IMG/VR virus record: IMGVR_UViG_3300051212_000613
Location: 1-20,566 of that record
From: a virus
Reading direction: 5' to 3' (one strand)
DNA: 20,566 nt
Shown here piece after piece: positions 1-18,636 of this stretch. Positions within the stretch are counted from its first letter, which is position 1, and each line of letters opens with the position of its first letter. The notes under the pieces were generated by a model. It saw nothing but the letters and a program-made list of their open reading frames with translations, was not told the DNA's origin and searched no databases. The position numbers were made by a program, and so were the translations under genes.

Positions 1-2213
1 TATCGTAATCCTGCTATTTTTAAGATAGCACCCAATTCACCACTTTCTCTAGTTACTGGCTTGCCTTTTGGTGGAGGCGCTGTGGCACCATCTGGAGGAC
101 TTGGTACATTATTGGTCACAGGCTTAAACTTGGGATTAGTTGGCTTTGGAGGTGATGATGGTTTATTATATGCCTGTGCACCACCGCCTGCTCTTGCGCT
201 TCCATAATTTGGGCTCATTTGTCCGCTTACAATACCTTCTTCTGCGCCTTGGTCAAAACTTGGTGTTTTAATACCTGATAATTCCAACATACGAGCCTGT
301 TCATATCGTGAGTGATGACGCTCTTTAAGTTTGCTCATTATACGACCACAGGCACCTTCTACCATACGATCAAACATTTCTGCTTTAGGATGTTTTGGAT
401 CAATACGATATTTTTCCTTTAACTCCTTACACATCTTTGTGACAAAGCCTTCTTCACCAATAGTAAATGTACCATTGTTCTCATTGAAGAACCCACTAAC
501 ACGACTAAAGATTTCATCTACTATACGGTGCATCATCTTTCCTTCCATCATAGGGGCAGGATTTGGTACCATTGGTCCTGGTGCTGCTCCACCGGCTGCT
601 GCCATAGGATCCATTGGAGGTGCTGCTGGTGCTGCCATATCAGGTGCAGGCGGTGCAGCGGCTTCAGGAGGAGGTGCTGCTGGTGCTGGGGCAGGTGGTT
701 GTGCGGGTGGGGGAGGAGCTGCTGGCACTGCGCTTGCTCCATCAAATCCTAAACGATCACTTAAGTCTGTTCCATTCTCTGCATCATAACTTCTTAAAAA
801 TTCATTAATGATTGGTCTAGCATCCATTTCATCTAAACCTAAATCAGCTAACAGAGCAAATGCTTTATTAAGTTTTTTCTCATCAATCATTCCGGCAACA
901 CTATCTATAGCATTATCACCATTTGTACCTAATGGAACTTCACTGGCAAATAATTGTTTCAATTGTTCCATTGCTTGATTTTGTACTTCCTCATCACCAC
1001 TAAAAACATCATCTGTTTCACTGACAATTTGATTCAAATACTGTTCAAATGTACTAAATTCTTTAACGTCTTTTTCCTTACCTTTCATAGCCTGCTTGGC
1101 AAGATGTTTAGCACGACTTTGTCCACCATGTTCGGCCTTGTCACCGGCATCTTTCTTTTTCTTAGGAGGATCAGGATCAAATGGTGGATCATTTTCATCA
1201 TACTCTTTATCACCTTCTAGGATATCATCTGCTGATAACTCTTTAATAGGTATTTGTGTTTCATCAACTAACTTATAGATATATGGAAAGGCATCTTTAA
1301 GTTCTTCATTAAAACTACGTACGGTTAGTCTATCAACCCAATCATTTAATATATCTTCTGGGACTTCATTCTTTTCCGCTACACTGAAACTTTCTCTAAA
1401 CTGACCGTAATATTTTTGTGTTTGTAGTGCGTGAATTTCTTCTTTAATACCAGCTATACGCTCAATCACTTTTTCCTGTACAGTGCTCATATTCTCACTG
1501 ATTACAGGACTACGATCAACATAATTCTTGAATATTCTTAACTTACCTAATTCTTCACTTAGTCCAATAATATAGTTGCCAATATCATCAAAGAAACTAC
1601 CACCTTCGCTGATATGGTGAGCCATTGCTCTGGCACCATTTAAGTGTTTAATTGGATAGCGAAAACGTTCTCCTATGCTGTTTTCCACATAGATATTTTC
1701 AATATGTTGAGTACGTCCGTTTGGAGCATTAAAGTTAATAGGCTGTGTGTGCCTTACTATAATCTTTGCTTCACCCATTTCTTGGTAGCTAGTCTTGCTA
1801 GTACCAAATAATTTTGATTCATTCATATTACCTTCCCCGATAGAGTGACGTCTTACTAGATTACTTTGACTTGGGTTTTGTGCGTTAAAATTAAGTCCAT
1901 GTGTTTGAGCAAATTTTGGTAATATGCTACGGATAAATCTATCCCAAGACCTACTTTGAACCTGTTCATTCCAACTAACATCTAATCCAGGACTGCCATC
2001 CCCTTCTTCTTTTTCGTTTAGACTGACTGTTACATTAACTAATTTTTCACCACTTTCATCTACAAAATCAAAATTAAATTTACGGGCATCTTGATCTTTA
2101 AGATTTACTCCATCAATAGGTTTATCGTCTGCTGTACTCTTTTTTAGACTGGGAAATCTAGTCTGTAATTGACGACCCAAATCTACAGCTATGCGTTGAA
2201 AATTAGCACTCAT
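1..2213 (-). CDS. Large conserved phage protein of unknown function, 3' end cut by window
   Basis: The frame is open from the ATG at 2213 to the left edge with no stop, giving at least 737 codons; the C-terminus lies outside the window. I do not recognise a domain. Visible regions are a polar N-terminal part (about 1-320) with a conserved-looking stretch around 125-230 rich in Gly, His and aromatic residues, a Lys/Asp-rich linker near 345-375, an acidic helical part to about 480, a Pro/Ala/Met-rich linker at about 493-553, another helical region, and a Pro-rich tail before the edge. The linker layout suggests a multidomain structural or assembly protein. It follows gp17 by 11 bases and has its own late promoter. 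It is not the portal gp20: neither length nor sequence pattern fits. Start choice: the only ATG beside the promoter; no Shine-Dalgarno is present, so the transcript may be leaderless. Confidence 0.85.
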   Translation of the reverse strand, partial: MSANFQRIAVDLGRQLQTRFPSLKKSTADDKPIDGVNLKDQDARKFNFDFVDESGEKLVNVTVSLNEKEEGDGSPGLDVSWNEQVQSRSWDRFIRSILPKFAQTHGLNFNAQNPSQSNLVRRHSIGEGNMNESKLFGTSKTSYQEMGEAKIIVRHTQPINFNAPNGRTQHIENIYVENSIGERFRYPIKHLNGARAMAHHISEGGSFFDDIGNYIIGLSEELGKLRIFKNYVDRSPVISENMSTVQEKVIERIAGIKEEIHALQTQKYYGQFRESFSVAEKNEVPEDILNDWVDRLTVRSFNEELKDAFPYIYKLVDETQIPIKELSADDILEGDKEYDENDPPFDPDPPKKKKDAGDKAEHGGQSRAKHLAKQAMKGKEKDVKEFSTFEQYLNQIVSETDDVFSGDEEVQNQAMEQLKQLFASEVPLGTNGDNAIDSVAGMIDEKKLNKAFALLADLGLDEMDARPIINEFLRSYDAENGTDLSDRLGFDGASAVPAAPPPPAQPPAPAPAAPPPEAAAPPAPDMAAPAAPPMDPMAAAGGAAPGPMVPNPAPMMEGKMMHRIVDEIFSRVSGFFNENNGTFTIGEEGFVTKMCKELKEKYRIDPKHPKAEMFDRMVEGACGRIMSKLKERHHSRYEQARMLELSGIKTPSFDQGAEEGIVSGQMSPNYGSARAGGGAQAYNKPSSPPKPTNPKFKPVTNNVPSPPDGATAPPPKGKPVTRESGELGAILKIAGLR

Positions 2214-12263: not shown

Positions 12264-13031
12264 TTATCCGATAATAAAAGTGTATCCTGTGCCACCGGCT
12301 ACGTAGGTGTCTATCTCTTTTTCCAATTTCTCTATTTCTTCTTTGGCTGATGCTTTTAGGTCTGCGCCGTTAAGGCCTCCAGCACCACCAGGGCCTGCTA
12401 TTTGACTAAACTTACCTCTAGCTTCTCCTAGCATTAATTTACAATTGGCCAAGGTATAATCTTTGAACCATGGGGCAGCATATGGGTCTTGTAATAAGAT
12501 ATAGTCTGGTCTATGATTATACCCTCTAATTAATACTTGTTCACCATCCCCATAAGCACGTTGAAGAATACGTAAAGTATGTGTAGTTGGTATCCATTGA
12601 AACTCAATAAAAGCACCAAACATACGTCCTACTAATTCTTGATATTGAGCAAACATATCGTATGTTGCTATACCACCTAGCATAGTACTATTCAATAGAT
12701 ATGTGTTCGTATAGGCTAGGTTAAATGGCTCAAACTGTGTGCCACCACTACCACCTGCTGTACGACTACCTATAGTGCGACGAAATATACTACGCACTTC
12801 TATGATTTCTTTAGGTAATCTATAATCGTTAGTATCTTCCTTAAGTTCTAAAAAATAGTAAGCTTCTTCTACAGCGTTAGGGCTTTTTTGACGATATTTG
12901 GCTATAGCACGATCCAGAGCTATTTCATAGTGATCTGGGTCTAATTCTACATCAACCATACCATCACCCAGCATGGTTCTTACATATTTGTAAACATTTT
13001 CACGTTCTATTAGGGTAGTAGATTTTGACAT
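12264..13031 (-). CDS. gp13: Neck protein gp13
   Basis: 255 aa, against 309 in T4. gp13 with gp14 forms the neck that closes the filled head and receives the tail. The sequence matches the marine T4-like form: an N-terminal helix (VYKYVRTMLGDGM), ALDRAIAKYRQKSP, then YRLPKEIIEVRSIFRRTIGS near 73-92, FEPFNLAYTNTYLL near 101-114, ATYDMFAQYQELVGRMFGA near 122-140, a DYTLANCKLMLGEARGKF segment near 191-208, and the C-terminal GPGGAGGLNGADLK followed by a helix. The start at 13031 has GGAG seven bases upstream and a late promoter 17 bases upstream. It is transcribed away from gp14, whereas the T4 genes run in the same direction. Confidence 0.87.
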   Translation of the reverse strand: MSKSTTLIERENVYKYVRTMLGDGMVDVELDPDHYEIALDRAIAKYRQKSPNAVEEAYYFLELKEDTNDYRLPKEIIEVRSIFRRTIGSRTAGGSGGTQFEPFNLAYTNTYLLNSTMLGGIATYDMFAQYQELVGRMFGAFIEFQWIPTTHTLRILQRAYGDGEQVLIRGYNHRPDYILLQDPYAAPWFKDYTLANCKLMLGEARGKFSQIAGPGGAGGLNGADLKASAKEEIEKLEKEIDTYVAGGTGYTFIIG

Positions 13032-13048
13032 ATTTTGCTCCGGTACTG

Positions 13049-13056
13049 TATTTATT
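13049..13056 (-). promoter_or_regulatory. Late promoter (AATAAATA) for gp13 and the kinase
   Basis: The minus strand reads AATAAATA; predicted +1 near 13043 gives a leader of about 12 bases containing GGAG. It forms one arm of the inverted repeat TATTTAT-ttgtcg-ATAAATA (13049-13068), whose other arm is the gp14 promoter. Confidence 0.7.
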
Positions 13057-13060
13057 TGTC

Positions 13061-13068
13061 GATAAATA
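13061..13068 (+). promoter_or_regulatory. Late promoter (GATAAATA) for gp14-gp15-Nudix
   Basis: The plus strand reads GATAAATA-CCAT-ATG, with the last A five bases before the A of the gp14 ATG and no Shine-Dalgarno, so a leaderless transcript is predicted. It faces away from the gp13 promoter, with only six bases between the two core motifs. Confidence 0.65.
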
Positions 13069-13072
13069 CCAT

Positions 13073-14374
13073 ATGCCCCGCCTAAGCCTATATCGTCCAG
13101 AACGTGGAAATGATTTTAAATTCATAGATCGACAGATCAGTGAAATGTTTCAGATTGGCGGCACAGATTTTTATCTACACAAGTATATTGGTGTTAACAC
13201 GGCTCCAGAAAATGCCACATTAGATCAGCCTAATTATGCTGAAACTAAAGAAACTAACATACAAGATTTGTTGCTATTGGAGAATCGTGACAGAAAGTAT
13301 GACCCCAGCATTTATAAAATACGGGGCCATTACCAAGTTCAAAACTTGGATTTTAATCTCAGCCAATTTGGTCTTTTTATTGATAATGACACAATATTTG
13401 CCACTGTTCATATCAACGATTGGATTAGAACTGTGGGGCGCAAACCATTGATGGGTGATGTTTTTGAACTCCCACACTTGGTCGATGAATTTGCTCTTAA
13501 CGATTATAACATTGCCTTACCAAGGTACTTTGTCATAGAGGATGTTGCTCGTGCCAGTGAAGGATTCAGTCAAACTTGGTGGCCACATTTATATCGAATA
13601 AAATTAAAGAAAATAATAGATAGTCAAGCATTTGCTGATATATTGGATAAACCAGCAAAGGAAGGAAGTGATCAAACCCTTAGGGAGATACTCAGTACTA
13701 AAGGTGCAGAACTTCAAATTAACGATGCTATATTGGCTCAAGCTGAAGCAGATGTTCCAATGAGCGGATATGAGACTAGGCAGTTCTATACATTGGCTGT
13801 TGATGAAACTGGTAATCCTGTATTAGAAACTGTGGATCAAACAGATATAGATGCTAGCTCAACTGGATTAGATGCTAGTAGAATAAATGGTAGGCCTATT
13901 CGTAATGGATATTCTGGACATTTAGTTGGGGACGGTTTTCCACCGAATGGTCATGCTTTTGGTCATGGTGGATCATTTCCCAGTGAACCATTTTTAAATG
14001 ATTATTTTTTGAGAACTGACTTTTACCCTAATAGATTATTTAGATACGATGGGACAAGATGGGCTAAGATGGAGGATGCTGTTCGTCATACATTGACTAA
14101 TGCTGATGCTAATTTTGCTAATCCTAGAGGTGTATATGATATCAGCGTAAATTATGGCTTGAATGATCTTGTTACTTTTGGTGGAATAGAATATGTTGCT
14201 AAAATTAATAATATTGGACAAGAACCTTTAGATAATCCTACAGTATGGCGTCAAGTTAGGAAAACAGAGAAAACCAGTTTTATTAACAATACCAATGTCA
14301 ATACTATAAATGGTGAACAAGTTGTAGAAAGAGTCAGTTTAAGTAAAGCTCTAAAACCTAAGGCAGATTTATAA
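13073..14374 (+). CDS. gp14: Neck protein gp14 with C-terminal extension
   Basis: 433 aa, against 256 in T4. The conserved part is about 1-195, including MPRLSLYRPERGNDF, the strand LSQFGLFIDNDTIFATVHIN (96-115), GRKPLMGDVFELPHL (122-136) and a WWPHLYRIKLKKI segment (169-181), which matches the gp14 pattern of FG...VDDEVTLSIN and GKEPKEGDLIYFP. The remaining 240 residues are an extension. They contain a GH-rich loop (282-300), a YFLRTDFYPNRLFRYDG...W module (311-330), and a carbohydrate-binding (CBM5/12)-like hairpin (about 353-394: Y..NDLVTFGGIEYVAK...P..N...W). The ATG at 13073 is preferred because it begins the conserved MPRL sequence and fits the promoter. The gp15 start overlaps its stop by one base (TAATG). 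Confidence 0.8.
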   Translation: MPRLSLYRPERGNDFKFIDRQISEMFQIGGTDFYLHKYIGVNTAPENATLDQPNYAETKETNIQDLLLLENRDRKYDPSIYKIRGHYQVQNLDFNLSQFGLFIDNDTIFATVHINDWIRTVGRKPLMGDVFELPHLVDEFALNDYNIALPRYFVIEDVARASEGFSQTWWPHLYRIKLKKIIDSQAFADILDKPAKEGSDQTLREILSTKGAELQINDAILAQAEADVPMSGYETRQFYTLAVDETGNPVLETVDQTDIDASSTGLDASRINGRPIRNGYSGHLVGDGFPPNGHAFGHGGSFPSEPFLNDYFLRTDFYPNRLFRYDGTRWAKMEDAVRHTLTNADANFANPRGVYDISVNYGLNDLVTFGGIEYVAKINNIGQEPLDNPTVWRQVRKTEKTSFINNTNVNTINGEQVVERVSLSKALKPKADL

Positions 14375-16005
14375 TGCAGTTTTTCTATGACGGTCAGATA
14401 AGAAGATATCTTCTACAAACTATGCGTTTGTTCAGCAATTTTGTGGTAAAATATGGTGATGGTAGATTGATGCAAGTACCTGTCATGTATGGTGATCAGG
14501 ATAAACAAGTAGCAACTATACTAAGACAAAACAGCGAAAATAAAGTTAATTCTATGCCTAAAATCGCTGTATACATTTCCAATTTAGAAATGGACAAGGA
14601 AAGATTAGCTGATCCTACATTTGTTGGTAAGGTACATATCAGAGAAAGAGCTATTGAGGATGGTGAATATACCAGCGCACAAGGTAGTAATTATACTGTA
14701 GAAAGATTAATGCCCAGTCCTTATAAACTTACAGTAAAAGTAGACATTTGGACCGGCAGCACTGAACAAAAATTACAAATTTTAGAACAAATATTAATGT
14801 TGTTCAATCCTAGTTTAGAAATACAAACCACAGAAAATTTTGTAGATTGGACTAGTCTAAGTGTGGTTTACCTAGATCAAGTTGATTTCAGTAGTAGAAG
14901 TATACCTGTTGGTGCAGAGATACCCATAGATATAGCATCATTGACAGTTAGTATGCCAATATGGATAAGTCCCCCAGCTAAGATAAAAAAATTAGGCGTA
15001 GTAAACAGTATTCTAATGAGTATGTATACTAACATAGGAGCACCAGCTACTGGGTATATTGATGGATTTGGTCAAGATCCAAACGAAGGTACCAGAAATT
15101 TATACGACGTAGTCCCTATACCAGTTCAAATAAATGTAGTTGATTATGATATCATAGTGTTTGGTGGATGTGCTAAAGTTTATCAACCCAATGCTGCTGG
15201 AAAAATAATTAATGGTTTGGACGATCCAGATCTTGGTAGTATGGAGTCTGTAAATTGGGAAGTTATATTATTAAAACATCCTAATACCTATACTCCAGGT
15301 GAAAGTAAAATTTTTCTTCGTCAGTTTAACGGAAATGAAGTCGTAGGTACTATTGCTATAGATCCTTTTGATTATACTTGTCTAAATATAAATTGGGATC
15401 CAGATACATATCCAAGTAATACAGATATAAGTAGTTCTCTTAGACCTAATAGTCCTGGAACATTTGATGCTATTATAGATCCTCAGACTAAAGGACCAGG
15501 AAGTGGGCTTCCTCTACCCACAGCAGGTACAAGATATTTGATTATTAATAGCATAGGAGCAGGTATTAGAGAAACTATAATAGCAGAAAACAGCAGTAAT
15601 AGAATAGATACTACAGTAGATTTTGACCTAGTAGATGATGTTAAAATTTTTGTCAATGACTCGCCTGTTTCTTTTAATATTTTCAATGTTGATAACAAAC
15701 TAGTAATTAGACTAAATCAAAATGTCGCTGTTGATGACGTAATTTTATATATTTTAAATCTTAATTCAGATGGCCCCGATGCTTGGAAAAATTCTGATGG
15801 TACAGACTTTATTGCCAATGCCAATGATATAATTGAATGGACTGGCTCACGATGGCAAGTTATATTTGACAGTACAACTTCAAGAAATGTCATTAGATAT
15901 CTAACAAACATATATACTAATGTCCAATATAGATGGGATGGCATTAGTTGGACAAAAAGTTTTGAAGGACTATATCGTAAAGGTGATTGGCGATTAATTT
16001 TATGA
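14374..16005 (+). CDS. gp15: Tail completion / sheath stabiliser protein gp15, C-terminally extended
   Basis: 543 aa, against 272 in T4. gp15 caps the tail tube and sheath and joins the neck. The first 205 residues fit the family: FFYDGQIRRYLLQTMRLFSNF, QVPVMYGDQDK near 34-43, the SPYKLTVKVDIWT strand (115-127), a helix with QILEQILMLFNPSLEI (135-150) and the MPIWISPPAKIK segment (194-205). The remaining roughly 340 residues are not in T4 gp15. They are strand-rich, with Asn/Asp loops and aromatic hairpins near the end (IIEWTGSRWQVIFDS; YRWDGISWTK; KGDWRLIL). It is coupled to gp14 by TAATG and to the Nudix gene by ATGA, so all three are probably read from the promoter at 13061-13068. Confidence 0.82.
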   Translation: MQFFYDGQIRRYLLQTMRLFSNFVVKYGDGRLMQVPVMYGDQDKQVATILRQNSENKVNSMPKIAVYISNLEMDKERLADPTFVGKVHIRERAIEDGEYTSAQGSNYTVERLMPSPYKLTVKVDIWTGSTEQKLQILEQILMLFNPSLEIQTTENFVDWTSLSVVYLDQVDFSSRSIPVGAEIPIDIASLTVSMPIWISPPAKIKKLGVVNSILMSMYTNIGAPATGYIDGFGQDPNEGTRNLYDVVPIPVQINVVDYDIIVFGGCAKVYQPNAAGKIINGLDDPDLGSMESVNWEVILLKHPNTYTPGESKIFLRQFNGNEVVGTIAIDPFDYTCLNINWDPDTYPSNTDISSSLRPNSPGTFDAIIDPQTKGPGSGLPLPTAGTRYLIINSIGAGIRETIIAENSSNRIDTTVDFDLVDDVKIFVNDSPVSFNIFNVDNKLVIRLNQNVAVDDVILYILNLNSDGPDAWKNSDGTDFIANANDIIEWTGSRWQVIFDSTTSRNVIRYLTNIYTNVQYRWDGISWTKSFEGLYRKGDWRLIL

Positions 16006-16439
16006 AAGATCGTATTGTTTGTAGCGGTGCATTATTTTATGCTAAAAAAACTGACAGAATTTTATTACTACAAAAATCTAAAGGAAAACACAGTGGAACT
16101 TGGAGTCTGGTAGGTGGTACTACTGATTCAGGTGAAAACGCTTGGCAAGGTCTTGTTAGAGAAATTAATGAAGAAATAGGCTTTATGCCTAATATAATGA
16201 AGTCAATTCCTTTAGAAACATTTGTCAGTAACGACAGTGTTTTTAACTTTCATACTTTTCTCTGTGTAGTTCAAGATGAGTTTATACCTAATCTAAGTGA
16301 GGAACATAGTGGCTGGAGTTGGACCAGTATTGATATGACTCCAAAACCACTACATCAAGGATTACGTAGCAGTTTATCTAGTAAACCTATTAAAAATAAA
16401 TTAATAACTGTATTCAACCTTCTCAAGTTGATCCAATAA
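16002..16439 (+). CDS. Nudix hydrolase
   Basis: 145 aa. Nudix enzymes hydrolyse nucleoside diphosphates linked to another group, such as ADP-ribose, Ap4A, oxidised dNTPs or capped RNA; the substrate cannot be told here. The Nudix box is a perfect match to Gx5Ex7REUxEExGU at residues 39-61: Gly39, Glu45, Arg53-Glu54, Glu57, Glu58, Gly60, Phe61. The metal-binding Glu57/Glu58 pair is present. Before it are the usual first strands (VCSGALFYA, ILLLQKS) and the SGTWSLVGG lead-in. The ATG at 16002 overlaps the gp15 stop as ATGA; an upstream ATG at 15987 in gp15 is less likely. The 3' end overlaps the convergent glycosyltransferase-like gene by 39 bases. Late-operon placement implies late expression. 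Confidence 0.93.
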   Translation: MKDRIVCSGALFYAKKTDRILLLQKSKGKHSGTWSLVGGTTDSGENAWQGLVREINEEIGFMPNIMKSIPLETFVSNDSVFNFHTFLCVVQDEFIPNLSEEHSGWSWTSIDMTPKPLHQGLRSSLSSKPIKNKLITVFNLLKLIQ

Positions 16440-18293
16440 TCTAATTAAACTGAACTTATTCATAACATGAACATTCAAGGAATTAGTTTTAATTAGAGTA
16501 TATTCTCCTCTATGTTTTTCTTTTTCCAATAAAAATTTCATTTCAGTTTCATTATATTCCAGCAATAAATCTCTATCAGTTGTATAGTATAAAGAGCCTG
16601 GTAAACTATGAGCCCAAGTTCCTTTTTGATAACCATTCATAATGTGTATGCCTATACTATAAGCATAATCATTTCTATATAAACTATGCTCAATTTGGTA
16701 TACATGTCTGTAATAATTCCAATTATCCTGTATATGACCTAGTAAGTTAAAAAAGGTTTCTGTATTTTTATTTTTCTTAAAAAAGAATACTGTAGCCCAG
16801 TAAAAGTCCACACCTTTATCACTTACTGTATGTAATCTAGGATCATGTCTATATCCAGTTAAATCTTTAGATTCTTTAAAAATTAAAAAATCATGTGGTT
16901 GTTCCCAACAATATTTTAAGTTATCGTTATTAATATAATAGTCGCAATCAATTACTAAAGTTTCATTGTAAGGGCTAAGTTCAAAACTTTTTATTCTAAT
17001 ATCATTTTTAAATTTTAATCTTTTGAAACTTAGACTACCATCAAAATATCTTCTATATTGAGGAGTACTTTCAAATACAACTTCCCTTTCTCTCGTATCT
17101 TCCCATATATCATCTCTAATTTTATTTGGTATTCCGTCATAATTCACCGTACTTAACCAAAGAGTTCTATTATAAAGTAAAATATCACCTTTATTAAACT
17201 TATCTATACTAGTTAGATCTTTTACATTTTCAATTAGTATGTCATACATGTTTGCAAGAAAATCTATATTTTCACTATGATCAGTATGACACCTATATAG
17301 TGTATTATTATTCCAAACATGCTGCCCTGCCAAATAAGGAAGATTTGGATACCATTTATCAATATCAATACCTTGATATACTGGGTCTAAATCTTCTAAA
17401 TTATAATTTGTTGATATTTTTTGACCAAAATCAATATTTGATATCCATAATTTTCTGTCATGAAATCCTAAATCACCTTTTTTAATAATAGAAGTGTTAT
17501 CCAAATCTATCACATTTTCAATCATTATGATATATCTATGTTCACTAAATGTATCTGATTCTGTATAACCTATTTCACATCTATAAACATTATTGTTATA
17601 ATATACATGTTGTCCTTTTAAATAGGGTAGATCTGAATACCATCTGTCGATATTAATACCTTCATAAACTCTTTCAAAATCTTCTTCTTTAAATTTAAGT
17701 AAATTGTCTTTAACTTTTAGCCATAAAGATCTACGATTTAGAATTTTGTCACCAATTTTGATTTCATCTAAGTCATCGTAATCAAGAATATTTCCAACAA
17801 TTATATCATATTTGTCTATACTAAATTTATCCTCCTCTTCATAGTCAGTATGACATCTATATAAATTTTTTTCATACCAAACATGTTGTCCTTTTAGATA
17901 AGGTAAATTAGGATACCATTTATCAATATCTATGCCATCATATATTTTTTCATAGCAATCATCATCTTTATATTCGTGATGAACTAATTCAATTTTTTCA
18001 ACACCTTCTTTAAATTTATGCCATATTGTTCCTTTATAAAACGCTAGGCTATCTATATCATAGTTTTGACTGCTGCTCCAATTTTGTATTTCTGTTTCGT
18101 GAACAATTTTGATTAATATATCAAAAACTTCCTTATAATCTGGATATTGTTGTTTCAACCAATCAGCACTGTCAGTAATAATTGAAATTGGCAAGTTCAA
18201 ATGTTTTTTAGCTTGTTTTGCAGCATGATAGGCTATTTTAACATAATCTACCTGTTCATTATTAAGAGCGTAAATTATAATGCCTTTACTCAT
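16401..18293 (-). CDS. Glycosyltransferase-like protein split by three carbohydrate-binding-like repeats
   Basis: 630 aa. The ends look like one GT-A-type glycosyltransferase of a family common in marine T4-like phages. Residues 1-63 have a nucleotide-sugar-binding-like start (KGIIIYALNN, a helix, then LPISIITD). Residues about 405-630 have RYFDGSLSFKRL, ELSPYNETLVIDCDYYINND with the DxD-type metal motif at Asp449/Asp451, an HDFLIF strand, and VDFYWATVFFFKKN. Between them, about 340 residues hold three repeats (starting near 116, 208 and 305) with the pattern GI(D/N)ID(K/R)WY..LPYL.GQHV...N..YRC and then a KIGDK..NRRSLWL half. A lone half-repeat lies at about 80-104. The first half resembles CBM5/12 chitin-binding modules. 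The start overlaps the 116-aa gene by 8 bases. The sugar donor and acceptor are unknown. Confidence 0.75.
   Translation of the reverse strand: MSKGIIIYALNNEQVDYVKIAYHAAKQAKKHLNLPISIITDSADWLKQQYPDYKEVFDILIKIVHETEIQNWSSSQNYDIDSLAFYKGTIWHKFKEGVEKIELVHHEYKDDDCYEKIYDGIDIDKWYPNLPYLKGQHVWYEKNLYRCHTDYEEEDKFSIDKYDIIVGNILDYDDLDEIKIGDKILNRRSLWLKVKDNLLKFKEEDFERVYEGINIDRWYSDLPYLKGQHVYYNNNVYRCEIGYTESDTFSEHRYIIMIENVIDLDNTSIIKKGDLGFHDRKLWISNIDFGQKISTNYNLEDLDPVYQGIDIDKWYPNLPYLAGQHVWNNNTLYRCHTDHSENIDFLANMYDILIENVKDLTSIDKFNKGDILLYNRTLWLSTVNYDGIPNKIRDDIWEDTREREVVFESTPQYRRYFDGSLSFKRLKFKNDIRIKSFELSPYNETLVIDCDYYINNDNLKYCWEQPHDFLIFKESKDLTGYRHDPRLHTVSDKGVDFYWATVFFFKKNKNTETFFNLLGHIQDNWNYYRHVYQIEHSLYRNDYAYSIGIHIMNGYQKGTWAHSLPGSLYYTTDRDLLLEYNETEMKFLLEKEKHRGEYTLIKTNSLNVHVMNKFSLIRLLDQLEKVEYSY
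17139..17948 (-). repeat. Three tandem coding repeats of about 280 bases within the glycosyltransferase-like gene
   Basis: Repeat 1 is about 17948-17697, repeat 2 about 17672-17424, and repeat 3 about 17381-17139. Equivalent Trp codons (residues 126, 218, 314) give spacings of 92 and 96 residues. The best-kept DNA is the part encoding WY..LPYL.GQHV; repeats 1 and 3 are closest there in protein. Divergence between copies indicates old duplications rather than recent slippage. Confidence 0.85.
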
Positions 18294-18636
18294 TCATTAA
18301 AGCCTTTACAGATCTACTTTTTTTAAGACTTTGGTAATCATTAAAATAATTGTTTGTAGATATAAAATATTGATCTACGATATTATCAAGGAAATCTGTC
18401 AAATCATCTACACGAATTGGTAATTCATTATCATCGATAAGAACAATATTTTTAATATTTCCTAAGTCAATCAATGTTTTTACAAATGTGATTAGAGATT
18501 TGTCAATTTTAAATGTGCCACCAGAGTGATAATAAACACAATCTGTTTGGTATTTTTCTTGTAAACTTCTTTTTTGATTATTTAGAGTTACCATAAAATT
18601 GGCAAACTCCAATGCTTTTTCTAAACGTTCATCCAT
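18286..18636 (-). CDS. Small conserved phage protein, unknown function
   Basis: 116 aa, no membrane segment. A long N-terminal helix (about 1-32, ERLEKALEFANFMVTLNNQKRSLQE) is followed by a CVYYHSGGTFKIDKSL strand-turn, a helix (ITFVKTLIDLG), a strand with an IVLIDDNELPI turn (64-74), and a C-terminal helix. I recognise the type from marine T4-like phages but know no function. It has a good AGGAG site five bases before the ATG and overlaps the glycosyltransferase-like gene by eight bases, so the two are probably co-translated. The pairing with that gene suggests a partner or regulator of it, which is inference. A weak late-promoter-like motif lies upstream at 18656-18663. Confidence 0.85.
   Translation of the reverse strand: MDERLEKALEFANFMVTLNNQKRSLQEKYQTDCVYYHSGGTFKIDKSLITFVKTLIDLGNIKNIVLIDDNELPIRVDDLTDFLDNIVDQYFISTNNYFNDYQSLKKSRSVKALMNE

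Follow-up and report, generated by a model that had tools for sequence, protein, structure and literature searches.

The protein encoded at positions 16401..18293 of the window, a 20,566-base virus record carrying myovirus tail and packaging genes, was found to be, with a probability of about 90%, one GT-A-like domain that is split in hypervariable region 1 (HV1) by a variable array of CBM5/12-like units. The gene is read from the minus strand, from 18293 to 16401, and comprises 630 amino acids plus a stop; the 630-residue frame proposed in an initial annotation of the sequence is present at this location, the strand being minus. A 100% identical copy of the protein occurs in a 57,948-base IMG/VR record (the 58-kb record below), which matches the window at 99.98% identity across the 9,163 shared bases compared. 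Immediately upstream lies a gene for a 116-residue protein of unknown function (18286..18636, minus strand), which is kept in relatives whose locus reaches that far. On the other side, a convergent NUDIX hydrolase gene (15987..16439, plus strand; E 4e-18) overlaps the 3' end of the glycosyltransferase-like gene by 39 bases.

The two ends of the protein had initially been taken for halves of one domain, and this claim was upheld by a repeat-free relative. In related phages, a second gene without repeats (~280 residues) adjoins the orthologue; it was present in 12 of the 16 records searched, and the window's own virus, whose record is a fragment, is not among the 12. In profile–profile comparison, residues 1–64 of the window family aligned with residues 1–60 of the neighbour (probability 90%, E 1.4e-6), and the window family tail aligned with neighbour residues 68–171 (probability 83%, E 9.5e-6). 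A search with the neighbour profile gave two colinear matches to the window frame in the 58-kb record, with profile positions 1–61 (E 5.2e-5) and 70–180 (E 3.1e-8); this search recovered the tail piece in 13 records but the head piece in only 2. The window protein as query likewise matched the neighbour in two pieces, 428–529 (E down to 1.8e-7) and 1–63 (E 9e-4 to 0.1). Because head and tail match a single repeat-free neighbour colinearly, they are read as two halves of one domain with the repeats between them. The head (residues 1–64; 18102..18293, minus strand) would comprise beta1, alphaA, beta2, alphaB and beta3, as taken from the model of a one-repeat relative, and the tail (residues 428–630; 16404..17012, minus strand), the first part of which matches the neighbour family, would comprise alphaC, beta4 and onward. 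The neighbour profile also matched glycogenin in the PDB over positions 14–105, DxD motif included (E 7e-4). The neighbour family, which matches phrog_1903 (function unknown), shares with the window family the order of head and tail and the DxD motif, and differs from it in having no repeats and a short HV1; phrog_1903 itself gave no match to the window protein at E <= 1. Downstream of the repeat-free neighbour in one relative (L012 4810-8759), the genes observed were two that match no family and two of the radical-SAM kind, one of these being of the twitch type.

Structure prediction gave a model of the 630-residue protein itself (with four relatives) that was too poor to use (pLDDT 46.9, pTM 0.23), and the structural check envisaged in the initial annotation failed at that point; it held for a natural one-repeat relative (L011), modelled with moderate confidence (pLDDT 66, pTM 0.57), in which both head and tail align to glycogenin. 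The alignment behind this model contained 27 unaltered natural sequences (15 of the window family, 10 neighbours and 2 of cyanophage type), and since repeat-free neighbours are among them, the model and the sequence matches are not independent lines of evidence. Five stretches of it fall below pLDDT 50, including the last 64 residues (371–434). With VIA-align, the model was aligned to glycogenin with Z 11.4 and 3.2 Å over 167 residues (model 1..374 on chain 2..178), and to LARGE1, UGGT and LgtC with Z 9.9–11.2. Foldseek against the PDB returned no match to the same model at E <= 0.001, with LgtC at 0.024; the first matches were phage tail fibre and baseplate chains and chitin oligosaccharide deacetylases, reported without aligned ranges. 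Among viral structure models, the best match was a 281-residue phage protein that is too short to hold repeats (E 2.5e-20).

The same model gives a site for the proposed insertion into a loop of the catalytic domain. Its beta3 spans residues 59–64 and its next helix residues 240–247, followed by the DxD-bearing strand, which places the insert between beta3 and alphaC. This loop is HV1 of GT-A enzymes, the hypervariable regions of which are tied to acceptor specificity in the sections of PMC7185993 drawn on here. The HV1 loop measures 11–14 residues in the 11 repeat-free neighbours examined and 170–506 residues in 12 full-length orthologue rows, two of them identical, the landmarks used for the two groups differing by a few residues. 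In the window protein, one half and three full CBM5/12-like units would replace it. Of the initial interpretation taken as a whole, this nested anatomy is the part that stands, on the neighbour matches and the relative's model.

With regard to family, the best explanation of the modelled structure is a GT-A-fold glycosyltransferase whose fold would be nearest to that of glycogenin and other GT8 enzymes. As far as the one-repeat relative's model goes, the family resembles glycogenin and LgtC (GT8, GT-A fold) in the fold of head and tail and in a DxD motif after beta4, and the conserved H609 may correspond to their histidine near the C terminus. The window protein differs from them in its lack of a Glyco_transf_8 match (none in Pfam at E <= 10), in its lack of a KPW motif and in the length of HV1 in its family. 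KPW is common to the GT8 clade in the C-terminal tail, according to the portion of PMC7185993 consulted; the window protein has HVMNKFSL at 609. Filing under GT8 was rejected on these two grounds, absence of the Pfam match and of the motif. Glycosyltransferase families, against which the initial annotation had proposed a profile search, went unmatched by the window protein in sequence searches, and a PDB sequence search with the whole protein returned nothing. Several lesser candidates were set aside: PDB sequence matches of the tail are at chance level (best E 0.12), a YQBQ-like match of the head (E 0.063) is read as chance and the neighbour's NCBIfam match to Npun_R2821/R2822 (E 0.002) reaches 17.8 of 250 bits, below the cutoff. 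A further short, repeat-free protein with a GT-A-like DxD, YP_009778182.1 of cyanophage ACG-2014f, has a sub-cutoff Glyco_transf_8 match (E 0.013, 15.5 of 24.3 bits). Its sequence tie to the neighbour family is weak (21% identity, E 0.06) and was not found from another neighbour; a structural match (E 5.8e-4) also speaks for the tie.

Three candidate catalytic positions were located in the tail. The DxD-type motif noted earlier at 449–451 is borne out as D449–C450–D451 (16941..16949, minus strand); it reads DCD in 16 of 16 orthologue rows, and strand 252–257 of the one-repeat relative's model runs into it. D542 (16668..16670, minus strand) occupies an invariant column of alignment A6, where the cyanophage protein has the D belonging to a DQ stretch. 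H609 (16467..16469, minus strand), within HVMNK, is kept in all 16 orthologue rows and is a candidate C-terminal metal histidine; it may be the equivalent of the GT-A C-His, in a region that lies below pLDDT 50 in the relative's model.

Three repeats and a lone half-repeat had been described between the two halves, and they are present as described. The lead half-repeat (residues 69–104; 17982..18089) is a single CBM5/12-like hairpin, predicted as a hairpin in both models, and is followed by unit 1 (residues 118–203; 17685..17942), unit 2 (residues 210–295; 17409..17666), unit 3 (residues 306–391; 17121..17378) and a post-repeat segment with a conserved QYRRYFD (residues 392–427; 17013..17120), all on the minus strand. 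The three units show 46–54% pairwise identity and local alignment scores of 226–251, against a best of 49–56 from 500 shuffles per pair. At the DNA level, the copies are ~64% identical, and Tandem Repeats Finder reported no array of repeat units, only one unrelated 19-base row; from both observations, the repeats are taken to be old copies and not a recent tandem array. The 17 units compared, drawn from seven records, share 21 invariant columns, including those of W-Y, L-P-Y-L, G-Q-H-V, Y and C. The further suggestion that each unit consists of two similar hairpins was sustained in part: two hairpins per unit are seen in AlphaFold models of low to moderate confidence, and the likeness in sequence between second and first hairpin is weak, though above chance, with 19 of 36 second hairpins exceeding the 95th percentile of shuffles. 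Of the lead halves, 8 of 13 also exceeded it; the sets compared include one identical record pair (L018 = L020). A simple EVVEVVE-type linker of varying length was observed between the lead half-repeat and the first unit, near residue 100, in L014, L015, L018, L019 and L023.

The assignment of these repeats to CBM5/12 was examined on single units and on whole proteins. When units were scanned alone, 15 of 17 matched CBM5/12 at E <= 1 (best 1.9e-5), with no Pfam match for unit 1 of the window. The window protein scores 14.8 bits against CBM_5_12, where the Pfam cutoff is 26.2; the cutoff is passed only by the four-repeat relative (L021), whose 27.7 bits are summed over copies, with no single stretch above it. 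Foldseek comparison of the one-repeat relative's model with the CBM5/12 structures 2rts, 2d49 and 1ed7 gave probabilities of 0.99–1.0, but E values of 0.12–0.26 over 42–44 columns. The likeness to CBM5/12 (chitin-binding type 3; ChiA1 1ed7, ChiC 2d49) lies in the Foldseek probability and the Pfam matches; the units here differ in that they start every 92–106 residues and have two hairpins and an invariant GQHV of their own. From their sequence, the repeats are predicted to bind carbohydrate. In a PDB search with the repeat profile, ChiA1 1ed7 appeared at E 0.27 among the best 60 of 87 matches. The top of those 60 was taken by prion proteins (E 0.009 to 0.27), which are read as a chance likeness of tyrosine-rich sequence. 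Also discarded as weak and scattered were a PHROG match to 'head morphogenesis' (phrog_20922, E 4e-4, residues 351–413) and the PHROG matches of single units.

Among the sequences compared from beyond the family, the unit profile matched two proteins of Vibrio phage BONAISHI (1.6e-22 and 3e-7) and one large protein of Vibrio phage 2.275.O (1.1e-9), with a 3,149-residue frame in L079 as a marginal further match (0.0024). A tblastn search of annotated phages with the window protein found two records, aligned over residues 71–354 (22.8% identity) and 4–245 (19.9%), and both proteins bear CBM5/12; the same search with the window tail, and with a relative, found none. The Vibrio phage 2.275.O protein (L006 4243-8106; CBM5/12 at 3.5e-14) has a start that resembles, by eye, the baseplate wedge protein in L147, so baseplate proteins, too, may incorporate modules of this kind.

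The number of units differs among relatives, as the initial annotation had foreseen, and its check on this point was satisfied for one to four repeats and for a repeat-free neighbouring gene; a repeat-free orthologue was not found. Among full-length orthologues, L011 has one unit, L012, L004, L018 (= L020), L019 and L023 have two, the window, L010, L014 and L015 have three and L021 has four. Partial orthologues show two units (L016, L017 and L003) or one (L005); the L017 frame is broken by one in-frame stop in the lead half-repeat (L066 3114-3365 and L017 2575-4002). No orthologue with zero repeats was detected among the relatives with tail profiles and a head DNA pattern (62 stretches); two of these relatives, L077 and L095, have sequences that end inside the insert. 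In a tree of units, read without support values, the unit adjoining the tail (unit 3 of the window) falls into a single class in all 16 rows, and the remaining classes are present in some rows and absent from others, in differing order. Head, tail, lead half and last unit are under purifying selection, with median dN/dS of 0.062 for the head, 0.095 for the tail, 0.141 for the last unit and 0.300 for the lead half; these four medians come from the pairs whose pS was below 0.70 (26 to 48 of 55), and the values are rough because silent sites are near saturation (mean pS 0.58–0.67).

For the genomic setting, a T4-like sheath stabiliser, a head-tail adaptor and a terminase were recognized among the window genes; the best annotated matches of the terminase are large Pseudomonas phages (54%). 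The glycosyltransferase-like gene is flanked by fibre and baseplate genes on one side and, on the other, by those for the sheath stabiliser and the head-tail adaptor. In the 58-kb record, the order leading away from the neck and sheath genes runs from the glycosyltransferase gene through virion-structural and fibre-type genes to a subtilase-family gene, and then to a collagen-like tail fibre protein, a very large virion protein and the baseplate wedge and hub genes (24 frames listed, with PHROGs scans on 7 and Pfam scans on 5 of them). The very large virion protein, read as two pieces that meet at the junction of two sequence stretches, exceeds the Pfam cutoff for CBM_5_12 in both pieces (28.4 and 31.2 bits). 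In the same 24 frames, the hairpin profile found nothing and the unit profile gave a marginal score only (0.058). Two observations belong to this region: the subtilase-family gene amid the fibre genes lies at L146 8891-10528 (minus strand; E 5.8e-31), and a virion structural protein at 13025-14374 of the window (plus strand; phrog_11591) has a C-terminal part (about 368–433) that resembles tail-fibre families, with a weak CBM5/12 match (E 0.18). Pelagimyophages have a comparable arrangement, in that a host recognition cluster or island bounded by VrlC and gp14 contains tail fibres along with several glycosyltransferases; in those phages, GT8 is the most represented glycosyltransferase family and is read as modifying host O-chains, in the part of PMC7029224 consulted. 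Gene placement is alike here, but no gene was identified by name as VrlC or gp14.

With respect to function, the window protein may, by analogy, work like a GT-A enzyme with an enlarged acceptor loop. The chances appear even that it is an active transferase whose array holds the acceptor, probably a host surface glycan. In such a mechanism, D449/D451 and a metal would mediate the binding of a nucleotide sugar by the Rossmann part, and the array, lying beside the active site, would hold a repeating glycan acceptor and lead to selective or processive action. During infection, the enzyme would modify host surface polysaccharide and so mask receptors from rival phages; molecules of this class may also be what the virion itself binds with its baseplate and fibres.

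It is conceivable, if rather unlikely, that the same enzyme instead glycosylates the phage's own fibres or baseplate, its modules docking on these virion proteins or on glycans already present on them. The location beside fibre-type genes and the CBM5/12-like modules in the large virion protein of the same virus are consistent with this; the gene position also fits modification of the host surface, however, and the glycosyltransferases of the pelagimyophage island are read as O-chain modifiers in the sections of PMC7029224 available.

A virion-carried adhesin-enzyme, whose modules bind host polysaccharide and whose glycosyltransferase domain either acts outside the cell or has become a scaffold, is in agreement with the first Foldseek matches in the PDB, namely phage tail fibre and baseplate receptor-binding chains (9rkv, 8fqc), and with the CBM5/12 that two Vibrio phages, BONAISHI and 2.275.O, carry in large proteins. 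The structural matches are weak, however (E 0.003 to 0.011, TM-score by query about 0.1). Nucleotide-sugar donors are unlikely outside the cell, which counts against action there, and the DxD and H609 kept in all 16 rows, together with stronger purifying selection on the catalytic halves than on the lead half and last unit, argue against a dead scaffold. This possibility, which the initial annotation had also raised, is considered improbable.

Most doubtful is a structural spacer or oligomerization element that has ceased to bind sugar and drifts in copy number by unequal exchange. Copy number does vary between close relatives, several of which have the EVVEVVE-type linker, differing in length, ahead of the first unit, and unit 1 of the window has no Pfam match; but the 21 invariant columns, the last-unit median dN/dS of 0.14 and the presence of the last-unit class in every row all speak against it.

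The lectin domains of GalNAc-transferases and MGAT4A are attached to the end of the catalytic domain and are not known to lie within it. These enzymes are similar to the window protein in having binding and glycosyltransferase domains in one chain, and the lectin domain tunes activity, as described in the portions of PMC4432651 and PMC9296478 consulted. PGAP4 likewise has an interrupted GT-A domain, split by tandem transmembrane helices; it differs in that the insert is two transmembrane helices and the protein is a Golgi enzyme (PMC5785973, from the sections available). Among the papers listed, judged by titles and abstract openings (15 of 44 and 15 of 227 matches in two of the listings), no description was found of a binding module nested in a glycosyltransferase or of such a phage gene.

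A more specific form of the host-surface reading, unlikely as it stands, is a receptor-matched glycosyltransferase, in which an adhesin-type module, as in the phage's own large virion protein, sits in the acceptor loop, so that the enzyme would find and alter the glycan that the virion binds, the number of modules being tuned by gain and loss to glycan length or spacing in the manner of a ruler. Elaboration of the hypervariable loops is seen as a way for GT-A enzymes to acquire new acceptors, according to the part of PMC7185993 consulted. The graded series of one to four units at one loop, together with a neighbour whose loop has 11–14 residues, makes the link between loop modules and acceptor choice directly testable. 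If true, it would tie the modules that phages use for adhesion to alteration of the host surface by the phage's own genes.
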